A stretch of DNA of 8,591 bases from an archaeon (lineage in GTDB: Archaea; Thermoproteota; Bathyarchaeia; TCS64): positions 1-8,591 of the forward strand of contig JAHLLU010000072.1 in the NCBI GenBank assembly GCA_020444005.1, written 5' to 3'. Position 1 is the stretch's first letter. Every line of letters starts with the position of its first letter. The notes beneath the pieces were generated by a model. That model made no database searches, had not been told where the DNA came from, and saw only the letters and a list, made by a program, of their open reading frames with translations. The position numbers were made by a program, and so were the translations under genes. Shown here in pieces: positions 1-8,591 of the stretch.

Positions 1-2
1 GC

Positions 3-212
3 GATTCCAATGAGTTGATGGATAGACTATGTAATGAGCCCGAGTTCAAGGAAGCAGGGATAACCGAGTCTATGCTTTCTAGTGCCTTGAAGGAGAAGAC
101 TCATTTCCTTGGCAACGCAGATGCACAGATCACAGCAGTAAAAATGAAAACAAATCCATTGCTATTAAAATACGCTAAGGAAGCAGGTTATGAACCGGGG
201 GACATCCTCTAG
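3..212 (+). CDS. C-terminal fragment, probable adenylosuccinate lyase-type enzyme
   Basis: The reading frame is open to the left edge of the window and ends at TAG 210-212, so this is the 3' end of a longer gene; the TTG at 15 and ATG at 18 are probably internal codons. About 70 residues are visible. The segment HFLGNADAQITAV, preceded by an Asn-Glu-Pro-Glu-Phe stretch and a helix-like region, resembles the C-terminal end of adenylosuccinate lyases, where a Tyr/Phe-x-Gly-x-Ala motif followed by Val precedes the terminus. If right, the enzyme cleaves SAICAR and adenylosuccinate to release fumarate in purine synthesis. The last ~23 residues after that motif look longer than usual. The identification comes from a short tail recalled from family knowledge and is moderate at best; another fumarase/aspartase-superfamily member is possible. 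It faces the minus-strand cluster tail to tail. Confidence 0.55.
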   Translation, partial: DSNELMDRLCNEPEFKEAGITESMLSSALKEKTHFLGNADAQITAVKMKTNPLLLKYAKEAGYEPGDIL

Positions 213-213
213 G

Positions 214-897
214 CTACTCTGAGCCGGCTCTCAGGTACATTACCATTGATGCGGCGATGAATACCACCACCAGCAAACCTACTAGCATGTGAGGTACAGG
301 CAGTCCCGCAAGTGGAGCCTGCGCTATTTTAGTCATATAAGGTGTTGCAACGTATATTCCCGCTGTTAATCCACCTGTTATCATAACTAACATGACTAGG
401 TATCCAACTTGTCCACGTGTAATATCATCGATATCCTGTTCATCTGCGCCCCTGCCTCTTAGCTCATCTCTGACATATCTAAAGCGCACAGTATATCGGA
501 GCATTAGATATGTTATCTGTAGTAATAGTCCGACTCCGAAGACCCATAGGTGGGTGACTCCGGGGGTTGGTGTGAGATCGAATATGAGTCCAACCCAGTT
601 GAATGTGCTGAAATCGAGGACGCTGGGGAAGAACATGAGCATGTTGAGGCTAAATAGGCGTCCGAACCAGACCTCGTCGCCTTTTCTCCAGAAAGTGAAG
701 CAGACGAAGAGTACTGCTATGATGATTGCTATGTTAAAGTATGGTAGATATGGCTGTACCAGTGGACCGATTACGCTGTTGCTGATCTTGGTAAGTATCT
801 TGTTGTAGAGGGTTGTCTGAACCATAGTTACAGCTGCCATATAGGTAGCCGCGACAGCCACGAGGGCTTCCATGGTTCTTACGAATCCTTCTCTCAT
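214..897 (-). CDS. Six-TM membrane protein, last gene of MoxR cluster
   Basis: This 227-residue integral membrane protein belongs to no family I recognise. Hydrophobic segments lie at about 9-27, 53-70, 80-97, 114-134, 163-184 and 203-221. Positive charges favour a cytosolic N-terminus, a cytosolic RKGDE loop after TM2, and a large charged cytosolic loop at about 135-162 that begins with many Arg and then turns acidic. That loop is the likeliest contact for the cytosolic ATPase or DUF58 partner. The ATG start overlaps the TGA stop of the DUF58 gene as ATGA, and a purine-rich GAGGGTGGG tract (902-910) sits just upstream, so translation is probably coupled. It is the distal gene of the five-gene cluster and its TAG is one base from the stop of the convergent neighbour. 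A membrane subunit of the MoxR/DUF58 complex is inferred from position only. Confidence 0.85.
   Translation of the reverse strand: MREGFVRTMEALVAVAATYMAAVTMVQTTLYNKILTKISNSVIGPLVQPYLPYFNIAIIIAVLFVCFTFWRKGDEVWFGRLFSLNMLMFFPSVLDFSTFNWVGLIFDLTPTPGVTHLWVFGVGLLLQITYLMLRYTVRFRYVRDELRGRGADEQDIDDITRGQVGYLVMLVMITGGLTAGIYVATPYMTKIAQAPLAGLPVPHMLVGLLVVVFIAASMVMYLRAGSE
219..234. other. GC-rich hairpin at convergent gene ends
   Basis: CTGAG at 219-223 can pair with CTCAG at 230-234. The central bases 221-230 also form a perfect palindrome, GAGCCGGCTC. The element starts seven bases after the stop codon of the left-edge gene and lies inside the last codons of the opposing 6-TM gene. It could fold at the 3' end of the plus-strand mRNA. 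No T-run follows it, so a terminator role is only a suggestion. Confidence 0.3.
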
Positions 898-2336
898 CCA
901 CCCACCCTCTGTCGTTGTAGTGCCCTTGCGAAGCTTTCCTCTATAGGGTCCCAGTTAAGCACAGTTACGCCCATTCCTCTGAGGAACTCGTAGTATGGCT
1001 TGGTGTGATAGGTTAGGAATCCTGCTGCGATCTTTTCTTGGTCGCTCTGGGCGGCGATGTTGTAGCCTTGTACGTTGAATAGGATGATGTTTGGTCTGCC
1101 CCCGACCCTGCCCATGTATTTGTGGAGTTCTTTGACACCTTCTACGATTCCCTGTATTCGGGCGCCTTCGATCATGCTGATGAGGACGAAGAGGGGCTGA
1201 GTGCCTACGATGTATCGGCGGCTGCTGTGGATGGCTTCCTTGAGGCTCTCGTTGCTATACTTGACCTCGACATGAAGCATCTCTCGTGTGATCTTGTATT
1301 GCTGTCGTTTACCTGTATCCGGGTAGAGTACTCTTGATGTATGCTTCTTTGTTGGAAGAATTTTTTCATCAGACTCAGGGATATACACCTCTGGCTCCAT
1401 CTGCTCTAAACCAGGTAGCTCTAAGTCCAGTGGTTGTTTGTCTTTTTTCTCGAATGGTCCTTCCCATTGGCTTGCATCATGGTTGTATACGCAGAACCCG
1501 ACCCTGCAGTCTCTTTCTAGGTAAAAGTTTGTGAACCCGAGGGCTGCCCTGATGGCGTACTCCATGGTGTTATTCACAGTTGTTCCCAATGCCATATGGA
1601 CGGCGCTGTCTAGGAATATCCAGACTACTTTCTTGCCTTCTTTCTCAAAATCGTTTACCATGAACTTGGGGTTGGATATGCTGAGGTGTTTGGCGGACGC
1701 CTTCCAGTTAATGTCTCTATAGTTATCACCGGTGCCGTATTCCCTTATTTCCTTAAAGTCTGTGGTGGGTATTCCGAACCTGAATCTTGCGTCCATTGGC
1801 ATGGGGATTCTGCTGATGCTCTTATGGTTCTTTATCTTTCGTACGAAGAGTGGCTGCGGCTGGACGATGATGGCTCGTTTAGCATCGAGTACTCCAAGAA
1901 CGTTGGCGCTAACCTGTAGGGGGTGTCTTACCTCATAGTTTACCTGTCTGACATCAAAGTAGCCTCTTTTCGCGCAGAGAGCTCTGTAGTTTAGGTCGAT
2001 TGTCTTGGGTCTTAGTCCCTTCCAGACGGCTTTGAAGTTGTTTCCCTCCTCAAGCGCGAAGCTTTTGGGTAGGCTGTCGCTTACTGTTACTATTCCGGGG
2101 CCTCCGTCGATTGTGACTTGTAGGCTGTCGCTTACCTTGTCGTCCACGTTTACTTTGATGTCTTTGCCTATGCGTTCTACTGCGGTTACTGTGGGTTGAC
2201 CTATGAGTATGGATATGCTGAGAAATAGTATTGGTGCGAGTCCTAGAGTAATCAGGATGAGGTTTCCCAGAAACATGCCTAGCACTAGATAGACAACCGC
2301 TGTTACAATCAGCTCAAGCGTGTCCTGGGTCAGCAT
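894..2336 (-). CDS. DUF58 / vWA-like protein with degenerate metal site
   Basis: This 480-residue protein has two N-terminal TM segments (about 8-28 and 30-46), then a beta-rich region (50-150). The DUF58 signature is at about 193-224: an IREYGTGDNYRDINWKASAK segment matching the family pattern REY.pGD..R.I.WkasA. A vWA-like fold follows from about 237. In the family the first vWA strand ends in DxSxS, which binds a divalent metal; here it reads D243-S-A-V-H247, so both motif serines are replaced. The downstream ..YAIRAALGF...RDCRVGF pattern is still typical. Residues about 293-365 look like an extra charged insertion, which helps explain a length above the usual ~400. DUF58 proteins are regularly paired with MoxR ATPases and are thought to be their adaptors or substrates. 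The gene starts 3 bases after the MoxR stop, with only a weak GGGAAAAG upstream, and overlaps the next gene by 4 bases. Confidence 0.93.
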   Translation of the reverse strand: MLTQDTLELIVTAVVYLVLGMFLGNLILITLGLAPILFLSISILIGQPTVTAVERIGKDIKVNVDDKVSDSLQVTIDGGPGIVTVSDSLPKSFALEEGNNFKAVWKGLRPKTIDLNYRALCAKRGYFDVRQVNYEVRHPLQVSANVLGVLDAKRAIIVQPQPLFVRKIKNHKSISRIPMPMDARFRFGIPTTDFKEIREYGTGDNYRDINWKASAKHLSISNPKFMVNDFEKEGKKVVWIFLDSAVHMALGTTVNNTMEYAIRAALGFTNFYLERDCRVGFCVYNHDASQWEGPFEKKDKQPLDLELPGLEQMEPEVYIPESDEKILPTKKHTSRVLYPDTGKRQQYKITREMLHVEVKYSNESLKEAIHSSRRYIVGTQPLFVLISMIEGARIQGIVEGVKELHKYMGRVGGRPNIILFNVQGYNIAAQSDQEKIAAGFLTYHTKPYYEFLRGMGVTVLNWDPIEESFARALQRQRVGG

Positions 2337-2339
2337 AGT

Positions 2340-3326
2340 TTATCTTTTCCCGATGAACTCTTTCGGCACTTCTATCTGTTCAAGTATCTCGTTTAGTACA
2401 GCCTCGACGCTGAAGCTTCCTTCAAGTACGTACTCCATCTTCATGATGCATCGGTGTCCGAGGGCGTCATGGACGAACATCTTGATATCGTCAGGTGTGA
2501 CGAATGCTCTTCCGCTGATGGCTGCGTGACTACGGGCGACTTTGAGTAAAGCTAGTCCTCCTCTGGGGCTTGCGCCTACTTCTACGACGGGGTGTTTTCG
2601 TGTTTCTCGTATGATCTCGCTGATGTAGTCGATTATCTTGTCGTCTACGTAGATTTTCTCTTCGATGAAGTCTTGTACTGCTTTGAAGGTTTGCTGGTTG
2701 GTTACTGGCTGGATCAACTGTGTGGGGTCATCTTGTTTCCAGTAAACTCTCCGTTTGAGTATCAATGCTTCTTGGCTTAGTGTCTCAACATAGCCCATGT
2801 TCATTTTTAATAGAAAACGGTCCATCTGCGCTTCTGGTAGTGGATATGTTCCCTCCATCTCGATGGGGTTCTGTGTAGCGATTACGAAGAAAGGCTTCTC
2901 CAGTTTATGGGTCTCTCCTTCAATGGTTACCTGCCGCTCCTCCATCGCCTCCAGTAGACCTGCTTGGGTCTTTGGTGGGGATCTGTTGATCTCGTCTGCG
3001 AGCAGGATATTTGTGAATATTGGGCCTCGCTCCAGCGTGAATGTCTGGTCCGTCATCCTGTAGATTTTGGTTCCGAGGATATCGGCTGGCATCAGGTCTG
3101 GTGTGAACTGGACCCTGCTCATCTTGCAGCCGGTGATCTGGGCGTAGAGTTTCGCTAGTAGCGTCTTACCTAGACCCGGATAGTCCTCGAATAGGACGTG
3201 GCCATTGGCGAAGCTCGCTGAGAGCATCTTTCTGAGCACCATTCTTTTTCCTACATAGACCTTTCCTAGGCCTTCAAGTATCGCGTTGCTTATGGCGCGT
3301 ACCCTGTCGACGTGCATTGCCTGCAT
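2340..3326 (-). CDS. moxR: MoxR-family AAA+ ATPase
   Basis: This 328-residue ATPase has complete motifs: Walker A YPGLGKT (49-55), Walker B ILLADE (107-112) followed by the MoxR-typical INRSPPKTQ, sensor 1 TQNP (Asn153), the EAQMDRF arginine-finger region (Arg170), and sensor 2 GASPR (Arg255) before a helical lid. Length and motif order are normal for the family. MoxR proteins are cytosolic AAA+ chaperone-like ATPases that remodel or activate partners, often vWA or DUF58 proteins encoded next to them. The ATG at 3326 is preferred over the ATG three codons later because GGAG (3337-3340) lies 10 bases upstream of it. The gene begins 2 bases after the stop of the 8-TM gene and ends 3 bases before the DUF58 start. 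It appears to be the only protein in the cluster with intact catalytic motifs. The specific target is unknown. Confidence 0.97.
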   Translation of the reverse strand: MQAMHVDRVRAISNAILEGLGKVYVGKRMVLRKMLSASFANGHVLFEDYPGLGKTLLAKLYAQITGCKMSRVQFTPDLMPADILGTKIYRMTDQTFTLERGPIFTNILLADEINRSPPKTQAGLLEAMEERQVTIEGETHKLEKPFFVIATQNPIEMEGTYPLPEAQMDRFLLKMNMGYVETLSQEALILKRRVYWKQDDPTQLIQPVTNQQTFKAVQDFIEEKIYVDDKIIDYISEIIRETRKHPVVEVGASPRGGLALLKVARSHAAISGRAFVTPDDIKMFVHDALGHRCIMKMEYVLEGSFSVEAVLNEILEQIEVPKEFIGKR

Positions 3327-3328
3327 TT

Positions 3329-4543
3329 TTATTGTTCTCCGTTTTCCTGTTGCCTATTTGATTTATACGCCCCTAGGCCTAGGTCGTTGATCCGTTGTAC
3401 TGTCCTTTGTAGGACCAGCATTCTACGTTCCCTGTTCTGCTCCTCGATCTTGTCACTTGTTCCGCGTTTTGAGAAGTGCGGGAACTTTTCATCTTCGTAT
3501 CTGATGAATTCCTCAAGGCTGTCGGACATCTCTCTTTCGGATGCCCTGTTGTCGCTGAGGAACGCGAATAGTTTGACTAAAAGTCTCTCTTTTTCACCCT
3601 TCTGGATGAATTGTTCAATTATTTCTGTGAAATCTTTGAGGGCTTTGCCCTTTGTGGCGCTGGTGTCTTGGATGTGTTTGCTCCAGTTGCCTATCTCTGT
3701 TGGCACCATCATGGACTCGCTCATGCCTTGCCTCATTATCTGAAAGATGAATGCACCAACTATGACTACGCCCGTCCATTCTACGTATGGACTAAGTTGC
3801 TCCATGACCGGGCTGACCTCGGTGAGGTTACCGCTGATAAAGTTCACATAGAGTGTACCGATTAAGCTCAGAGCCAGTACGAAGAAGTAGTTTGCCGCGA
3901 TTGCACCGATCTGTGATAGATATGGGCTGCGGCTGTCCCTGAATATGCCCACAAGTGTGATTACCGAGGCTGCGCCGAAGCCCCAGTTGAGCATACTCTT
4001 GATGAGTGCTACTTGCTCTGACTCCGGTACACCGGGTACAATCATGTAAAGATTGACTAACTGTACACATACCTGTCCAATGATGAATATAGCTAGGGCT
4101 CCCGCTATCACCCTGATGTAAAACTGCTTTCTAAGCTCAGCTATAGTAGCTAGAATAGAGTACAGGAAATAGACTGCAAAGCTTCCCATGAAGAGATAAC
4201 CTGCTGTCTGTGTTGCCTGGCTGGCTGGCTGCAGTATCATGAATACTATGATTAGGCTTGCAAAGCCTCCTGCGTATAAGCCGCTTATTATTACATTGTT
4301 TATCTTTCCCTCAAAGAGGGTTCCGACTAGTATTGCTAAGTAGAAGAAGATGAGTGCAATCATTACTGGCACCATTATTACATAGATTCCCGCTGGCGCC
4401 ATTGATTCTGGGATGTATGGTAGGAAGCTGGCTACGTCTCCTATGGTGATTGTTGACGCGAAGCTGAGTACTGCTAGTACTGCTATTATACTGAAGAATA
4501 TCACTGTGGCTCTGATTAGCCTGCTTCTATTCTCGTTGGCCAC
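3329..4543 (-). CDS. Eight-TM membrane protein with charged cytosolic tail
   Basis: This 404-residue protein matches no named family I can identify. Hydrophobic segments lie at about 10-30, 52-75, 83-104, 114-136, 143-169, 183-201, 212-236 and 255-270. Positive charges (EGK near 80, ELRKQF near 140, FRDSR near 203) consistently place both ends in the cytosol. Residues 271-404 are soluble, very rich in Lys, Arg, Glu and Asp, and probably helical; this tail is a candidate docking site for the MoxR ATPase encoded next. The start is GTG at 4543, within the end of the upstream gene (17-base overlap); no stronger start is available before TM1. The overlap implies co-translation with the transglutaminase-like protein. 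A channel, transporter or scaffold role cannot be told apart from sequence. Confidence 0.85.
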   Translation of the reverse strand: MANENRSRLIRATVIFFSIIAVLAVLSFASTITIGDVASFLPYIPESMAPAGIYVIMVPVMIALIFFYLAILVGTLFEGKINNVIISGLYAGGFASLIIVFMILQPASQATQTAGYLFMGSFAVYFLYSILATIAELRKQFYIRVIAGALAIFIIGQVCVQLVNLYMIVPGVPESEQVALIKSMLNWGFGAASVITLVGIFRDSRSPYLSQIGAIAANYFFVLALSLIGTLYVNFISGNLTEVSPVMEQLSPYVEWTGVVIVGAFIFQIMRQGMSESMMVPTEIGNWSKHIQDTSATKGKALKDFTEIIEQFIQKGEKERLLVKLFAFLSDNRASEREMSDSLEEFIRYEDEKFPHFSKRGTSDKIEEQNRERRMLVLQRTVQRINDLGLGAYKSNRQQENGEQ

Positions 4544-6647
4544 TCTTCATCAACTCAATTATTAGCTCTATAGTAGCGTTCGTCCGCTTAAAATCATCTT
4601 GGCTCAACGTGATATTACTATACATGGCTATCTCGTAGCTTGAGACAAGGTCCTCTAGCAAGGCGTCCGCTGTCTTTGGAAGGCGTTCCTCTAGGACGTA
4701 TTGGAACTCACGTGGCGTCATCGCCTCATCGATATCGGGGTATATACGTTGCATGCTGACGTAGAATCTGTTAAACAGCTTGACTACGCCCTCCTCGTAA
4801 CTAGTGTATTCTAGGGGGATTCCGTCCTCGAACCCTACGTATTGTTTCTCTGGTGCTAGCTTGACACGTGCTTCTATGATTGGTTCTTCTTCTTGGAGTC
4901 GTTTGTTTCTTCGAGCCGCGTATACTCCTACTCCTATGGCTCCTGTGAGGGCGACGCCTATGTTGTATGGGAATGTGAGGAGCAGTGCTAGGAAGTTTGT
5001 AGCATCAGGAGGTGGCACAATGACTGTTACTGCTAACGTGTCGACGCCTCCTAGATAATAAAGGGACTCCTCTTTCACGAGGCTCACGTTTACCTGTCCC
5101 TTCTCTGGGAATAGTGCTACAAAGCTTACTTTTCCTTCGGCATCGCTTTTGAGGGTGATTATCTGGTTTAGGAATTCTACGTTTAGTGTGGTGTTTATTA
5201 TGGGTGTTCCGTCGCTTGAGTCAACTATGGTGCCTCTGTATGTGATGTTTCTTCCCTCATAGACCTGTCTTGGTCCATTGATATCGAGTATTGGGTCACC
5301 CATGACCTTGATGGGTGGATCGCTGAAGGATTCCATGTAGTAGGCTGTTTCTAGGCTGTGGGCTGTGAGGTTGTAGTCTCCGACGATTATCTCGGGTGTT
5401 GCGTCACAGGTTACGTTGAACCAGCCGTCTGTTACTACTCCTACTCCGACGATTAATCCTGCTTCTGACATGTTCAATTTGTCTTTTTTCAGAATGATCT
5501 CTACTTGTGTGTCTGTTACGGCTGTGTCGTTTGCGGTTCTTACTGTTCCCCAGACATTGAACTGTTGTCCTCTGATTGCTACTGGGTCATTTCCTGTGAT
5601 GTTACAGATAGTTTGTTGCTGGGTGATGTTTTGTTTTCCTTCCGTTGTATGGATTGGACAGGCGTCGAATTTTACCCAGCCAAGGTTCTCAAACTCTACT
5701 TCAGCGTACATGTATGCTTGTTGAGGTAGAACATACTGCATCTCGACGTCTGGTTTGACCGTGTATCCAACTACAACTCTCGCTGGAATATTCAGGCTTC
5801 TAGCAAGCAGCACAAAGGCTGTGTTGAAGTGGCTTCCTACTCCTACTTTTGTGATTGATAGGAAGTATCTGATGGGGTCGTATGATGATGGTGTTGCTGG
5901 GAATGATTCGTTGAACTCAAAGTTCTCCAAGAGGTACCTCTGAAGCGTTACCAGTTTGTCATAATCTGTGGCTGCACCGCCACTCCACTCCGTCGCTTTC
6001 TCATCTAGATAATCTTCTAGTGCAACTGGTACCTGAAGTGCTTCTTCTGGTCCTATTGCTTGGCTTGCCCTGAGGGCTGCTTCGCTGTACTGGTATTTCT
6101 TGTAGCTCACCCAGTATGGTTGGTCGTATGGTTCTATTGCGTCGAAGCTCTGAATGTCCTCGTAGTACTCTATGGTGAAGTCACTCTGGTTTAGTTTGAG
6201 GTGGTCGGTGTTTTGTGCTACAAGCATGTATCCTGTTAGGTTTGTTAGGGGGTTTACTTGGAACTGTACGAGTGCCGGGTTCTTTGGGTATGTTGGATCG
6301 GCGGGTAGTAGTTGTCCATAATAGTCCATTGGCTCTAGGTCCATTGGTTTGGTCCATGTGCCGTGTGTATAGTTGTATGCCGCGTATCTTCTGAGGTATT
6401 TGTCGCGTGTGGGGAGCCTGATGAGGAGGATGGGTCCTTTTTCTTGTTCAACTTCATAACCAACCTGTGCCTGTTGTTCTCCACCGCTTAGACTCTGTGC
6501 TTCTGAGAATCCTTTACTTGTTACGGGAGCTGTCTCGTCTAGTTCAAGCCGCGTGATGTCTCCTAGGATGTTGATGGCTGTTCCCAGCATTCCTACGCTG
6601 AGGGTCAGCACAATGAGTAATCCTAGTAGTCGCGCGTATTGTTTCAA
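4527..6647 (-). CDS. Exported inactive transglutaminase-like protein with DUF4129 tail
   Basis: This 706-residue protein is the first gene of the cluster. One N-terminal TM or signal anchor (about 7-29) leads to a large external region: an N-terminal part (30-210), a transglutaminase-like domain (about 215-335), and two Ig-like beta domains (about 350-445 and 449-545). A second TM (about 551-577) is followed by a cytosolic DUF4129-type domain (about 615-700) with the family's TPREF (644-648) and YEIAMYS (671-677). In the transglutaminase core the ARSLNIPARVVVGY and LGWVKFDACP segments are typical and the catalytic Asp (328) is kept. However, the Cys position holds Gly271 and the His position holds Tyr312, so cysteine-protease or crosslinking activity is unlikely. 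Thirteen N-x-S/T sequons lie in the external part. The start is TTG, with AGGGG (6661-6665) 13 bases upstream and no in-frame ATG before residue 20. Confidence 0.93.
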   Translation of the reverse strand: MKQYARLLGLLIVLTLSVGMLGTAINILGDITRLELDETAPVTSKGFSEAQSLSGGEQQAQVGYEVEQEKGPILLIRLPTRDKYLRRYAAYNYTHGTWTKPMDLEPMDYYGQLLPADPTYPKNPALVQFQVNPLTNLTGYMLVAQNTDHLKLNQSDFTIEYYEDIQSFDAIEPYDQPYWVSYKKYQYSEAALRASQAIGPEEALQVPVALEDYLDEKATEWSGGAATDYDKLVTLQRYLLENFEFNESFPATPSSYDPIRYFLSITKVGVGSHFNTAFVLLARSLNIPARVVVGYTVKPDVEMQYVLPQQAYMYAEVEFENLGWVKFDACPIHTTEGKQNITQQQTICNITGNDPVAIRGQQFNVWGTVRTANDTAVTDTQVEIILKKDKLNMSEAGLIVGVGVVTDGWFNVTCDATPEIIVGDYNLTAHSLETAYYMESFSDPPIKVMGDPILDINGPRQVYEGRNITYRGTIVDSSDGTPIINTTLNVEFLNQIITLKSDAEGKVSFVALFPEKGQVNVSLVKEESLYYLGGVDTLAVTVIVPPPDATNFLALLLTFPYNIGVALTGAIGVGVYAARRNKRLQEEEPIIEARVKLAPEKQYVGFEDGIPLEYTSYEEGVVKLFNRFYVSMQRIYPDIDEAMTPREFQYVLEERLPKTADALLEDLVSSYEIAMYSNITLSQDDFKRTNATIELIIELMKSGQRE

Positions 6648-6650
6648 TAT

Positions 6651-6662
6651 GGATGTACATCC
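6651..6662. promoter_or_regulatory. 12-bp perfect palindrome at the start of the MoxR cluster
   Basis: GGATGTACATCC is its own reverse complement. It lies 4-15 bases upstream of the TTG start of the transglutaminase-like gene and overlaps the G-rich Shine-Dalgarno-like stretch at 6661-6665. It could be an operator for a dimeric regulator or a small mRNA hairpin that masks the ribosome site. A partly similar GGATATGTACC lies at 6788-6798 on the other side of the divergent region. The palindrome is read directly; the function is inferred. Confidence 0.45.
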
Positions 6663-6693
6663 CCTGTGTGGGTTTTATTCTTTTACGTGCCCG

Positions 6694-6701
6694 TTTTATA
6701 T
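6694..6701 (-). promoter_or_regulatory. TATA-box-like element for the MoxR cluster
   Basis: On the minus strand the bases read ATATAAAA. An archaeal box A here would place transcription start about 25 bases downstream, near 6670-6675, giving a leader of roughly 25 bases before the TTG start at 6647. This is the only good TATA-like match at that distance upstream of the five-gene cluster. No TFB-recognition element is obvious. Confidence 0.5.
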
Positions 6702-6817
6702 GGTGAAATGATCAGATACCACGTTGTCTCAGTTTTCTGTTACATTACTTGCTGTATGGGACTAAATTAAAGGTCTTTATGGACTCTGGATATGTACCAA
6801 GGATAGCAAGTTAGTAT

Positions 6818-6825
6818 CATATATT
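6818..6825 (+). promoter_or_regulatory. TATA-box-like element for the arginine deiminase gene
   Basis: CATATATT lies about 55-60 bases upstream of the ATG at 6879. Transcription would start near 6845-6850, giving a leader of about 30 bases. That leader contains no Shine-Dalgarno-like GGAG or GGTG sequence, so initiation would be SD-independent. The position is plausible for an archaeal promoter but is not confirmed. Confidence 0.4.
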
Positions 6826-6840
6826 GAGAGCAACTCTACC

Positions 6841-6868
6841 CCCAAAAACCATTTACACCCAAAAACCA
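6841..6868 (+). repeat. 11-bp direct repeat upstream of the arginine deiminase gene
   Basis: CCCAAAAACCA occurs exactly at 6841-6851 and again at 6858-6868, a spacing of 17 bases start to start. Both copies lie between the predicted TATA element and the ATG. They could be binding sites for a regulator near the transcription start, or part of an unstructured leader. The repeat is exact; the role is unknown. Confidence 0.5.
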
Positions 6869-6878
6869 ATCAATATCC

Positions 6879-8228
6879 ATGTGGACAGTCAAGTCCGAGT
6901 CAGGCAAACTAAACGCAGTACTAGTACAAGACTCAACAGAACAGCTCTGGACGAAGAAAATGCCCTTCGCAGGCATCGAGTCCAGCACACACTATGTTAG
7001 CCGAGACCCCCATGCTCAGATGAATCCCGGACACGATCAATGGCTCCAGCTACCAAAAATACTCCGAGATGAAGGCGTAAAAGTCTTTGAAGTAAAGGAA
7101 ATGCTAGGACAAATCATTGAGAATGCTACGCTAGCTGAGCTAGAAGATATAGTAGATGATGTCTGGATGGGCATGCCTAACCCGCCTGAGCCAGAAGACC
7201 TTACCGTTGAACACCTCATGTGGGGCAACCCACCGATACCATTCTACGATCCAGTGACCGAGAAAGTAGTTCTCCCTGATCACAGACGTGTAGCATGGAC
7301 CTATACACGAGACACTAGCTTCACAACACAGATCGGAGCCGTTATCTGCAACATGCGCCGATACAGCAGACGCTATGAGCCAAGAGTAGTCAAGCTCTGC
7401 TACCAGTATGATCCAGTGCTCAGCGAAAAGACCGAGATTGTATATGATGCAAACGATACTCTAGGCGTATTCAGTGAACCCCCATGTGTTGAGGGCGGCG
7501 ATACTCAGATTATTGACGAAGAGACCATAGCTATTGGTGTAGGTCAGCGTTCAACAGTCACAGGTGTAGTCGAGACTGCTAAGCGTTTGTTTGAGGCTGA
7601 CAAGGATGGTGAGTTGAAGTATATCTGTGCAGTGAACTTGGCTGATTACCCTGCTGTGGACTATATGCATCTAGATGTAACCATCAACTACCCAGACAAA
7701 GGAAAAGCATTGGTCATGCCATACGTTTATGACACCAAGTTACTCAAAGACTATCCACCCAAGAAACTATTACTAAAAACCCTTGAAGCCATCAGACGCC
7801 AAAGCGAACAACATGGAAGACCCATGGAGCCACTAGTACACCCAGACCACTTCGCAGCTCTGGGAAGAACAGGAGTCTATATCAACGATAACGGTAAACC
7901 AAAGCTACTCAGGAACGAGATCAGTTTCCTAGACTTCCTGTTGAAGGAGGAGAAACTGGAGACAGATGGAGTCATCTATGTTGGGGGCGTACCTGAAGAC
8001 CCATGGGATGTTGAACATCTCCTCGATACCATGCTTGAGCAGAGCCGAGGGGCTTCAAACATTGTTACCATCAAACCCGGAATGGTAATCGCCTACGACA
8101 GAAACCATGCTACCAACGAGGAGCTAAGAAACCACGGCGTAACCGTCAAGGAATGGGAATCAGGATACTTAGACTTACTAGGTGGACCCCACTGCAGTAC
8201 AAGCCCTCTAAGCCGAGACCCAGCCTAA
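6879..8228 (+). CDS. Arginine deiminase family enzyme
   Basis: This 449-residue cytosolic protein has the ordered active-site motifs of arginine deiminase, which converts L-arginine to citrulline and ammonia through a Cys-bound intermediate. They are TYTRD with Asp145, VEGGD with Glu205, an IGVGQRS segment with Arg224, MHLD with His264 and Asp266, and the C-terminal GGPHC with nucleophile Cys439 followed by STSPLSRDP. Bacterial enzymes are about 410 residues; the extra length lies mainly between the N-terminal LNAVLVQDS strand and the TRD motif. From memory of the Pseudomonas enzyme, the Arg five residues before the nucleophile (Arg401 there) contacts substrate; here that position is Leu434, so substrate choice may differ. 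The ATG has no Shine-Dalgarno sequence. No carbamoyltransferase or carbamate kinase gene is visible, so the rest of an arginine deiminase pathway would lie elsewhere. Confidence 0.88.
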   Translation: MWTVKSESGKLNAVLVQDSTEQLWTKKMPFAGIESSTHYVSRDPHAQMNPGHDQWLQLPKILRDEGVKVFEVKEMLGQIIENATLAELEDIVDDVWMGMPNPPEPEDLTVEHLMWGNPPIPFYDPVTEKVVLPDHRRVAWTYTRDTSFTTQIGAVICNMRRYSRRYEPRVVKLCYQYDPVLSEKTEIVYDANDTLGVFSEPPCVEGGDTQIIDEETIAIGVGQRSTVTGVVETAKRLFEADKDGELKYICAVNLADYPAVDYMHLDVTINYPDKGKALVMPYVYDTKLLKDYPPKKLLLKTLEAIRRQSEQHGRPMEPLVHPDHFAALGRTGVYINDNGKPKLLRNEISFLDFLLKEEKLETDGVIYVGGVPEDPWDVEHLLDTMLEQSRGASNIVTIKPGMVIAYDRNHATNEELRNHGVTVKEWESGYLDLLGGPHCSTSPLSRDPA

Positions 8229-8298
8229 CACCCCCGTATCCTATATCCGTCTACTTTCTTTACACAACTTCTAAATACGAACCCCTTAGAAACCAAAA

Positions 8299-8315
8299 TG
8301 GAGAAAACATCTCCA
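8299..8315 (+). other. Short perfect hairpin downstream of arginine deiminase gene
   Basis: TGGAGA (8299-8304) pairs perfectly with TCTCCA (8310-8315) around a 5-base AAACA loop, 71 bases after the stop codon. No T-run follows, so it is not a classic intrinsic terminator. It may stabilise the 3' end of the mRNA or be chance. The rest of 8229-8412 shows no ORF or RNA gene that I can support. Confidence 0.3.
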
Positions 8316-8412
8316 CAGGTTAGGCGCCAAATCCCAATTTCTTCTCAAGTATCACGAAAATCAAAACACCGGTTACACAAGCCATGTTTCAATAAAAATT
8401 AATAGTTAAGAC

Positions 8413-8501
8413 GCCGGGATCGCCTAAACAGTTTATGGCGCCAATCTTAGAAATTGGAGACCCACCCCTGGGTTATCAGGGTTCAAATCCCTCTCCCGGC
8501 G
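8413..8501 (+). tRNA. Class II tRNA-like gene, anticodon UAG (Leu), irregular
   Basis: A full cloverleaf can be drawn. The acceptor stem GCCGGGA (8413-8419) pairs perfectly with TCCCGGC (8494-8500). The D stem GCC (8422-8424) pairs with GGC (8437-8439). The anticodon stem CCAAT (8441-8445) pairs with ATTGG (8453-8457) around loop CTTAGAA, giving anticodon UAG at 8448-8450, which reads CUA/CUN leucine codons. A long variable arm has ACCC (8460-8463) paired with GGGT (8470-8473). The T arm is CAGGG-TTCAAAT-CCCTC (8477-8493). Irregularities: the D loop lacks the usual GG pair (AAACAGTTTA), the outermost T-stem pair is C-C, and the discriminator is G (8501), typical of archaeal tRNA-Ser, where Leu normally has A. 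CCA is not encoded. It is either a divergent leucine tRNA, a serine-derived tRNA with a changed anticodon, or a decaying copy. Confidence 0.75.
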
Positions 8502-8527
8502 AAAAACATAGCCTATTAACACAAGGC

Positions 8528-8582
8528 GGGGGGGGATACCAACCGAAAAGGCTGGAAGCAACCCCTTTACCAAAAACCAGCC
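8528..8582. other. G-rich structured stretch with two competing stems
   Basis: After an 8-G run (8528-8535), GGGG (8532-8535) can pair with CCCC (8562-8565), enclosing a second stem of CCAACC (8539-8544) with GGCTGG (8550-8555), one A-C mismatch, around a GAAAA loop. The same GGCTGG can instead pair perfectly with CCAGCC (8577-8582). Two mutually exclusive folds are therefore possible. It may be the start of a noncoding RNA or leader continuing past the window, or only low-complexity sequence. The strand is not determined. Confidence 0.25.
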
Positions 8583-8591
8583 CCAAAACAG

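Follow-up and report, generated by a model that had tools for sequence, protein, structure and literature searches.

An inactive transglutaminase-like protein is encoded on an 8,591-nucleotide stretch of DNA from a Bathyarchaeia archaeon (contig JAHLLU010000072.1, positions 1-8,591; the whole stretch is called the window here). Its gene lies in a predicted operon, here operon A, with genes encoding a MoxR-type ATPase, a DUF58 protein and two multi-transmembrane proteins (TM404 and TM227). Catalysis has almost certainly been lost in the transglutaminase-like (TGc) domain of this protein, in which Gly and Tyr occupy the positions of the catalytic Cys and His. The protein is probably a catalytically dead relative of TgpA that became fixed in one clade of Bathyarchaeia and is now a putative arm of a MoxR machine, acting as receptor or scaffold. 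The sequences show that the fold was kept while Cys and then His were lost, that Gly and Tyr or Phe have been held at these positions, and that the gene order is unchanged.

Loss of the catalytic residues

The TGc domain matches Transglut_core (PF01841, residues 218-329; positions 5661-5996 on the minus strand, as for all window features unless stated) with 69.6 bits against a cut-off of 23, which bears out the fold proposed in an earlier note made from the sequence of the window. The triad positions read by eye in that note agree with a codon check and with the orthologue alignment. They are Gly271 (GGA, 5835-5837) for Cys, Tyr312 (TAC, 5712-5714) for His, and Asp328 (GAC, 5664-5666), the retained third residue, which is also supported by row counts. 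Close orthologues with the motifs G-x-C-x-x-F-N and H-x-[WY]-x-E align their Cys over residue 271 and their His over residue 312. A phmmer alignment to TgpA slips two residues at the His and pairs it with Tyr314. Residue 312 was taken as the His position because of the orthologue alignment and the His-to-Asp spacing, which a manual count on the alignment puts at 16 in both the window protein and TgpA (6g49). The AlphaFold model places residue 271 at the start of helix 271-284, residue 312 within strand 311-319 and residue 328 after strand 323-327.

A protein search gave 111 matches, including a close family of 103 (P0001-P0103, E at most 1.1e-114); the other eight are bacterial by name (three) or, mostly, by carrying the bacterial TgpA_N domain. 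One close-family row is a fragment without the Cys column, and triad counts use the remaining 102. These are row counts and not species counts, and certain locus rows duplicate protein rows (L008, L010, L011 and L012 are 98.6-100% identical to P0037, P0028, P0048 and P0079, respectively). The triad is G-Y-D in 70 rows, G-F-D in 13 and C-H-D in 9; the rarer states are S-Y-D (3), A-H-D (2) and G-F-N, G-Y-E, A-Y-D, S-H-D and C-H-E (one each). Cys combined with Tyr or Phe at the His position was found in 0 of the 102 rows. Since A-H-D and S-H-D rows exist and none has this combination, Cys was lost before His. The two losses had been claimed as independent; both residues are indeed gone, but the losses were successive.

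The replacements are conserved among orthologues with the same MoxR and DUF58 neighbours; a change confined to this copy, which the earlier note would have taken as refuting, is not what was seen. The main clade has 98 Cys-less rows, of which 90 carry Gly at position 271 and 95 carry Tyr or Phe at position 312. Two further residues accompany them. Tyr305 (5733-5735) is Tyr in 97 of these 98 rows and in 0 of 20 active rows, and Gln309 (5721-5723) is Gln in all 98 and in 1 of 20 active rows. Neither Tyr305 nor Gln309 occurs in the ten Cys-His-Asp orthologues L001-L005 and L048-L052. These orthologues have the full triad, the same gene order where contigs reach, and 34-38% whole-protein identity to the window protein. 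The protein of L013, in comparison, is 97% identical to it.

The window protein contains only three Cys (C330, C348 and C414), and all were rejected as a replacement nucleophile. Of the 99 rows lacking Cys271, 27 have Cys at position 330 and 25 at position 348, as against 0 of 20 active rows at either position; position 414 is Cys in 96 of the 99 and in 18 of 20 active rows and sits in the next domain. The row counts and the domain position thus rule out a substitute Cys among the candidates that the earlier note had named.

History of the losses and constraint

A 54-row tree was rooted on the proteins of a second, paralogous operon (operon B), with the triad columns and column 314 removed. 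P0056, L053 and L054 were omitted, and the Gly-Tyr/Phe rows were thinned at 75% identity. With L047 set aside, the remaining 28 Cys-less rows of this tree group in a single clade (98/91). Its deepest member, P0093, is A-H-D on a long branch, and the closest active neighbour is P0091 (C-H-D). Forcing L047 (S-H-D, genome G246) into the clade was rejected (approximately unbiased (AU) p 0.000487), and therefore Cys was lost at least twice. L047 (1492-3564 of its contig, minus strand) has a separate Cys-to-Ser change (TCC codon) within an otherwise active branch. In a quick tree of 90 rows, P0056 (A-H-D, long branch) falls within the window clade and the base of the inactive clade has a support of 88. 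The earlier note regarded the inactive protein as a distinct variant of the MoxR/DUF58 system. The inactive form is real, but it is a derived subclade and not a founding feature, because intact Cys-His orthologues occupy the same genomic place.

A second TgpA-type family without the catalytic Cys was found with P0111 (triad S-R-D, Ilumatobacteraceae bacterium) as query. The search gave 490 matches, P0111 included; the 120 listed rows (P0111-P0230) are those nearest to an inactive query and give no estimate of frequency. Among them, the Cys is absent in 120 of 120, His is kept in 6 and Asp in 112. An organism name is attached to three rows, all Ilumatobacteraceae. Most rows carry TgpA_N (PF11992), which is absent from the window protein, and the two replaced columns vary widely (2.38 and 3.09 bits) in comparison with Bathyarchaeia (0.49 and 0.76). 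From lineage and domain make-up, the inactivation of this family appears to be of separate origin, which suggests that conversion to the inactive form happened more than once.

Selection on the TGc core was estimated from ratios of nonsynonymous to synonymous substitution (dN/dS) by the Nei-Gojobori method in nine pairs, of which two (L008-L011 and window-L011) were left out because of saturation in TGc. The ratio is 0.12, 0.04 and 0.20 in inactive pairs, 0.25, 0.23 and 0.12 in active pairs and 0.14 in the pair L003-L047; the dS of L008-L010 is 1.24, near saturation. Positions switched between the inactive and active groups were also counted. Within TGc they are only 271, 305 and 309, of which 271 is partly circular, the groups being defined by the triad, and 305 and 309 are not. 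The inactive set of this analysis omits L047 and three His-bearing Cys-less rows; later counts restore the three. The C-terminal DUF4129-like tail has 8 switched positions of 91, and its identity is 0.722 in the inactive clade versus 0.564 in active orthologues.

Several results weigh against the binding role proposed below for the inactive TGc domain. Its switched positions (3 of 123) are no more frequent than elsewhere in the ectodomain, where the parts have 3 of 128, 3 of 108 and 4 of 93. When 12 divergent sequences per group were compared, the TGc core of the active group was more conserved than the whole protein (0.561 versus 0.479), and in the inactive group the two were about equal (0.554 versus 0.533). 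In the pair L007-L009, the TGc-core dN (0.077) is twice the whole-protein dN (0.038). P0089 and P0056 keep His without Cys within the clade, so that the His column is not wholly settled and repeated loss or regain of His is implied. Gly271 and Tyr312 could, moreover, be held only for folding. The TGc core has lost some of its extra constraint, yet it is far from neutral.

Proposed role and alternative explanations

The TGc domain is likely to bind or sense, with the DUF4129-like tail coupling it to the MoxR/DUF58 machine; the sensor or ligand-domain role suggested in the earlier note is plausible. What was once the substrate cleft, its shape altered by Tyr305, Gln309 and Tyr312, would bind a putative extracellular ligand, for which a surface protein or peptide is a candidate, or a partner subunit. 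The bound state would be relayed through the C-terminal transmembrane (TM) helix and the DUF4129-like tail to TM404 and DUF58, and the MoxR ATPase would act on DUF58.

Of 256 genomes searched in this class, 74 gave some match, mostly weak, and 20 contain an operon-A TGc. Seven of these are inactive (G006-G012), one is S-H-D (G246) and 11 are C-H-D (G001-G005, G014, G239-G242 and G244); in G015 the TGc part is cut off. Operon B encodes a twin-TGc protein of about 1250 amino acids (L062-L066; L062 at 7377-15437), whose modules are Cys-His-Asp in 10 of 10 cases in five genomes. Relatives of TM404, MoxR, DUF58 and TM227 lie beside the twin gene in L062 and L064; in L063 three opposite-strand open reading frames (ORFs) stand between TM404 and MoxR/DUF58, and L065 and L066 end at contig ends. 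The genome closest to the window (G012) also has, near a contig end, a 365-amino-acid TGc ORF with intact Cys-His-Asp (L067, 42-1139).

It is possible, if unlikely, that the dead protein is a partner or restrainer of the active twin, for example through a shared ligand or mixed complexes, as is the case for other inactive paralogues and their active enzymes. The twin was found in 5 of the 7 inactive genomes (G007, where it is cut by the contig end, G009, G010, G011 and G012) versus 0 of the 12 genomes whose operon-A copy keeps His (Cys is also kept in 11). It was likewise not found in G013, G054, G143 and G015, the last with an unreadable operon-A triad. The intact modules and the operon-A-type neighbours of the twin also speak for a partnership. 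However, the dead copies in the genomes are all members of a single clade, and the association may therefore reflect common descent; the metagenome-assembled genomes (MAGs) may be incomplete, two inactive genomes (G006 and G008) have no twin, and each of the two operons has a MoxR and a DUF58 gene of its own. A more elaborate scheme, in which the inactive TGc is a ligand receptor that controls MoxR/DUF58 and senses the substrates or products of the intact twin, the two forming a sensor-effector pair across the cell surface, is doubtful.

A purely structural scaffold, with the TGc domain as a folded spacer for assembly of a membrane complex and without a ligand, is rather improbable. The kept fold and gene order, the decreased relative constraint on the TGc core and the increased constraint on the tail are consistent with it, but the replacements are fixed, with new fixed residues beside them, in contrast to the P0111 family. 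A different, hidden chemistry with another nucleophile might be read from the conserved Asp328, Glu316, Asn275 and His273. The domain has no conserved Cys, however, and His273, being shared by 13 of 20 active rows, is not a newly gained substitute, which makes such a chemistry very unlikely. Nothing beyond the loss of the catalytic residues points to a decaying pseudogene, a sequencing error or an assembly artefact; these were rejected by the intact frame, the low dN/dS and the same state in tens of relatives across the clade, whose divergence also speaks against a shared faulty assembly, and their probability is negligible. The earlier note had argued against sequencing error by counting base changes. 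The exclusion stands by clade-wide conservation and not by that argument: GGA is two bases from the Cys codons, yet Cys to Gly needs one change (TGC to GGC, the codon at 271 in L007 and L009), as does His to Tyr.

Clusters of MoxR, DUF58 and transglutaminase genes are found in bacteria and archaea. The gene order, ectodomain fold and tail stay under selection with the enzyme dead, an indication that, in the inactive clade at least, the essential output of the cluster is something other than catalysis. This clade separates two class-wide hypotheses, a surface enzyme served by MoxR and a surface receptor coupled to MoxR, and provides natural pairs of active and inactive orthologues for testing them.

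The preferred binding role is made more natural, and less novel, by precedents such as the inactive transglutaminase domains of polymorphic toxins. These domains were reportedly studied by Zhang and colleagues in 2012. According to the extracts available of that paper (PMC3482391), extracellular triad-less domains come directly behind a signal peptide or TM helix, in some cases next to Ig-type domains, and are proposed to bind surface peptides; neither MoxR nor DUF58 is named in these extracts. Polymorphic toxins continue with RHS repeats and a toxin domain, for which the window protein has no Pfam match; its TGc domain is instead followed by Ig-like domains, a TM helix and the DUF4129-like tail. 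The other papers cited were likewise available in extract. In MoxR-vWA ternary systems, MoxR ATPases are linked with peptidase domains, many of them inactive (PMC7159879), but these are caspase and trypsin domains of intracellular conflict systems with a vWA protein, and DUF58 is not named in the extracts. Erythrocyte protein 4.2 (EPB42), a transglutaminase family member described as catalytically inactive (PMC10318531), is eukaryotic and has another domain set; its structure (7uzs) is the third Foldseek hit, with a poor global fit (TM-score 0.15). HM2192, a bacterial membrane protein annotated as an inactive transglutaminase, altered vesicle production when disrupted (PMC12096838). It has seven TM helices, and a Pfam search with the window protein at E up to 1 gave no family of this kind.

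Genes encoding a MoxR-type ATPase, DUF58 and a transglutaminase are adjacent in the bifidobacterial PFNA cluster, for which a receptor role is proposed (PMC8430577). This cluster adds kinase and FN3 genes, and its transglutaminase-like enzyme is described in the extracts without mention of triad loss. Surface peptidases of the transglutaminase family have been connected with archaeal type IV pili in a paper that also describes, as a separate matter, MoxR/vWA pairs (PMC4858521). A pilus link of operon A may serve as a lead only, pilus genes not having been looked for. No report of a dead transglutaminase in a MoxR/DUF58 operon was found in the open-licence PubMed Central (PMC) literature, as far as the extracts reach, and no paper there was found to combine the terms Bathyarchae and transglutaminase.

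Protein architecture and gene context

The TGc gene (4527-6647, TTG start) encodes a membrane protein of 706 amino acids, as delimited by the ORF listing, Pfam, the AlphaFold model and hydropathy. An N-terminal TM anchor (residues 7-25, 6573-6629, by hydropathy; model helix 2-29) precedes the ectodomain, which begins with a beta-rich part (about residues 58-207, 6027-6476) that, jointly with the TGc core, aligns to the ectodomain of TgpA. Two Ig-like beta domains follow the core in the model (about residues 342-545, 5013-5624), with weak CarboxypepD_reg similarity (0.0054) under the cut-off. A C-terminal TM helix (model helix 549-583, 4899-5003; also by hydropathy) leads to the DUF4129-like tail (residues 610-700, 4548-4820), which presumably lies on the cytosolic side. 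The Pfam match of the tail spans residues 634-688 and reaches 21.3 bits, below the cut-off of 24.8; PF13559 is present in the precomputed annotation of 8 of P0001-P0103. NCBIfam assigns no family to the protein.

The ectodomain fold matches that of TgpA of Pseudomonas aeruginosa (6g49, PF11992-PF01841), and most structural matches ranking after TgpA are to Ig-like regions in complement and macroglobulin proteins. TgpA presumably carries several N-terminal TM helices. The window protein, in contrast, has one, with no match to TgpA_N (PF11992) at E up to 1, and has two Ig-like domains in addition. Whereas the catalytic Cys and His are both missing from the window protein, TgpA possesses a Cys-His-Asp triad and its activity has been measured (PMC3507681, in extract).

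The second gene, TM404 (3329-4543), shares 17 bases with the TGc gene; simple hydropathy gives its product six TM segments, and no Pfam match was found for this protein at E up to 1. TM404 is followed by the genes encoding the MoxR AAA+ ATPase (2340-3326; AAA_3, 214.2 bits, with PGLGKT and ADEIN motifs), the DUF58 protein (894-2336; 35.1 bits, two N-terminal TM segments by hydropathy) and TM227 (214-897; five TM segments by hydropathy), the final gene. The TGc, TM404, MoxR and DUF58 genes share a strand and either overlap slightly or lie no more than 3 bases apart, and the operon is predicted from strand, spacing and conserved order. A pattern-based contig scan gave 16 loci, all Candidatus Bathyarchaeota. 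The order of a divergent deiminase-like gene, TGc, TM404, MoxR, DUF58 and TM227 is the same in active (L001-L005) and inactive (L006-L013) loci where contigs reach; L006 and L009 stop short of the deiminase gene, and TM227 is included only in L002-L005 and L009-L012. L049-L051 have a different upstream gene. The MAG G006 contains two operon-A copies (L006 and L010, A-Y-D and G-Y-D), owing to duplication or a mixed bin.

Comparison of TM404 and TM227 with the N-terminal TM part of TgpA-type proteins by hhalign gave probabilities of 0.2 and 0.1, which do not exclude a relation. PADLOC anti-phage profiles gave 0 matches for the five operon proteins at E 0.001, and identity as a defence system was set aside. 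The window DUF58 reads D-S-A-V-H at 1596-1610, where a DxSxS motif, which we take to be the vWA-type metal motif, would be expected. D-[ST]-[AG]-x-H is present in 11 of 11 aligned operon-A DUF58 proteins, from loci with active and inactive TGc, and D-x-S-x-S is retained in 3 of 4 operon-B DUF58 proteins. Operon A may have lost the DUF58 metal site before the TGc catalytic residues.

The divergent arginine-deiminase-like gene (6879-8228, plus strand; identified by Pfam) adjoins both active and inactive forms in most loci reaching it and is kept beside the operon in many Bathyarchaeia, where it is about 57-96% identical. Its product scores 130 bits against the ArcA cut-off of 489, and because this is well below the cut-off, its substrate may differ. 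A tRNA-Leu is predicted at 8412-8502, downstream of this gene.
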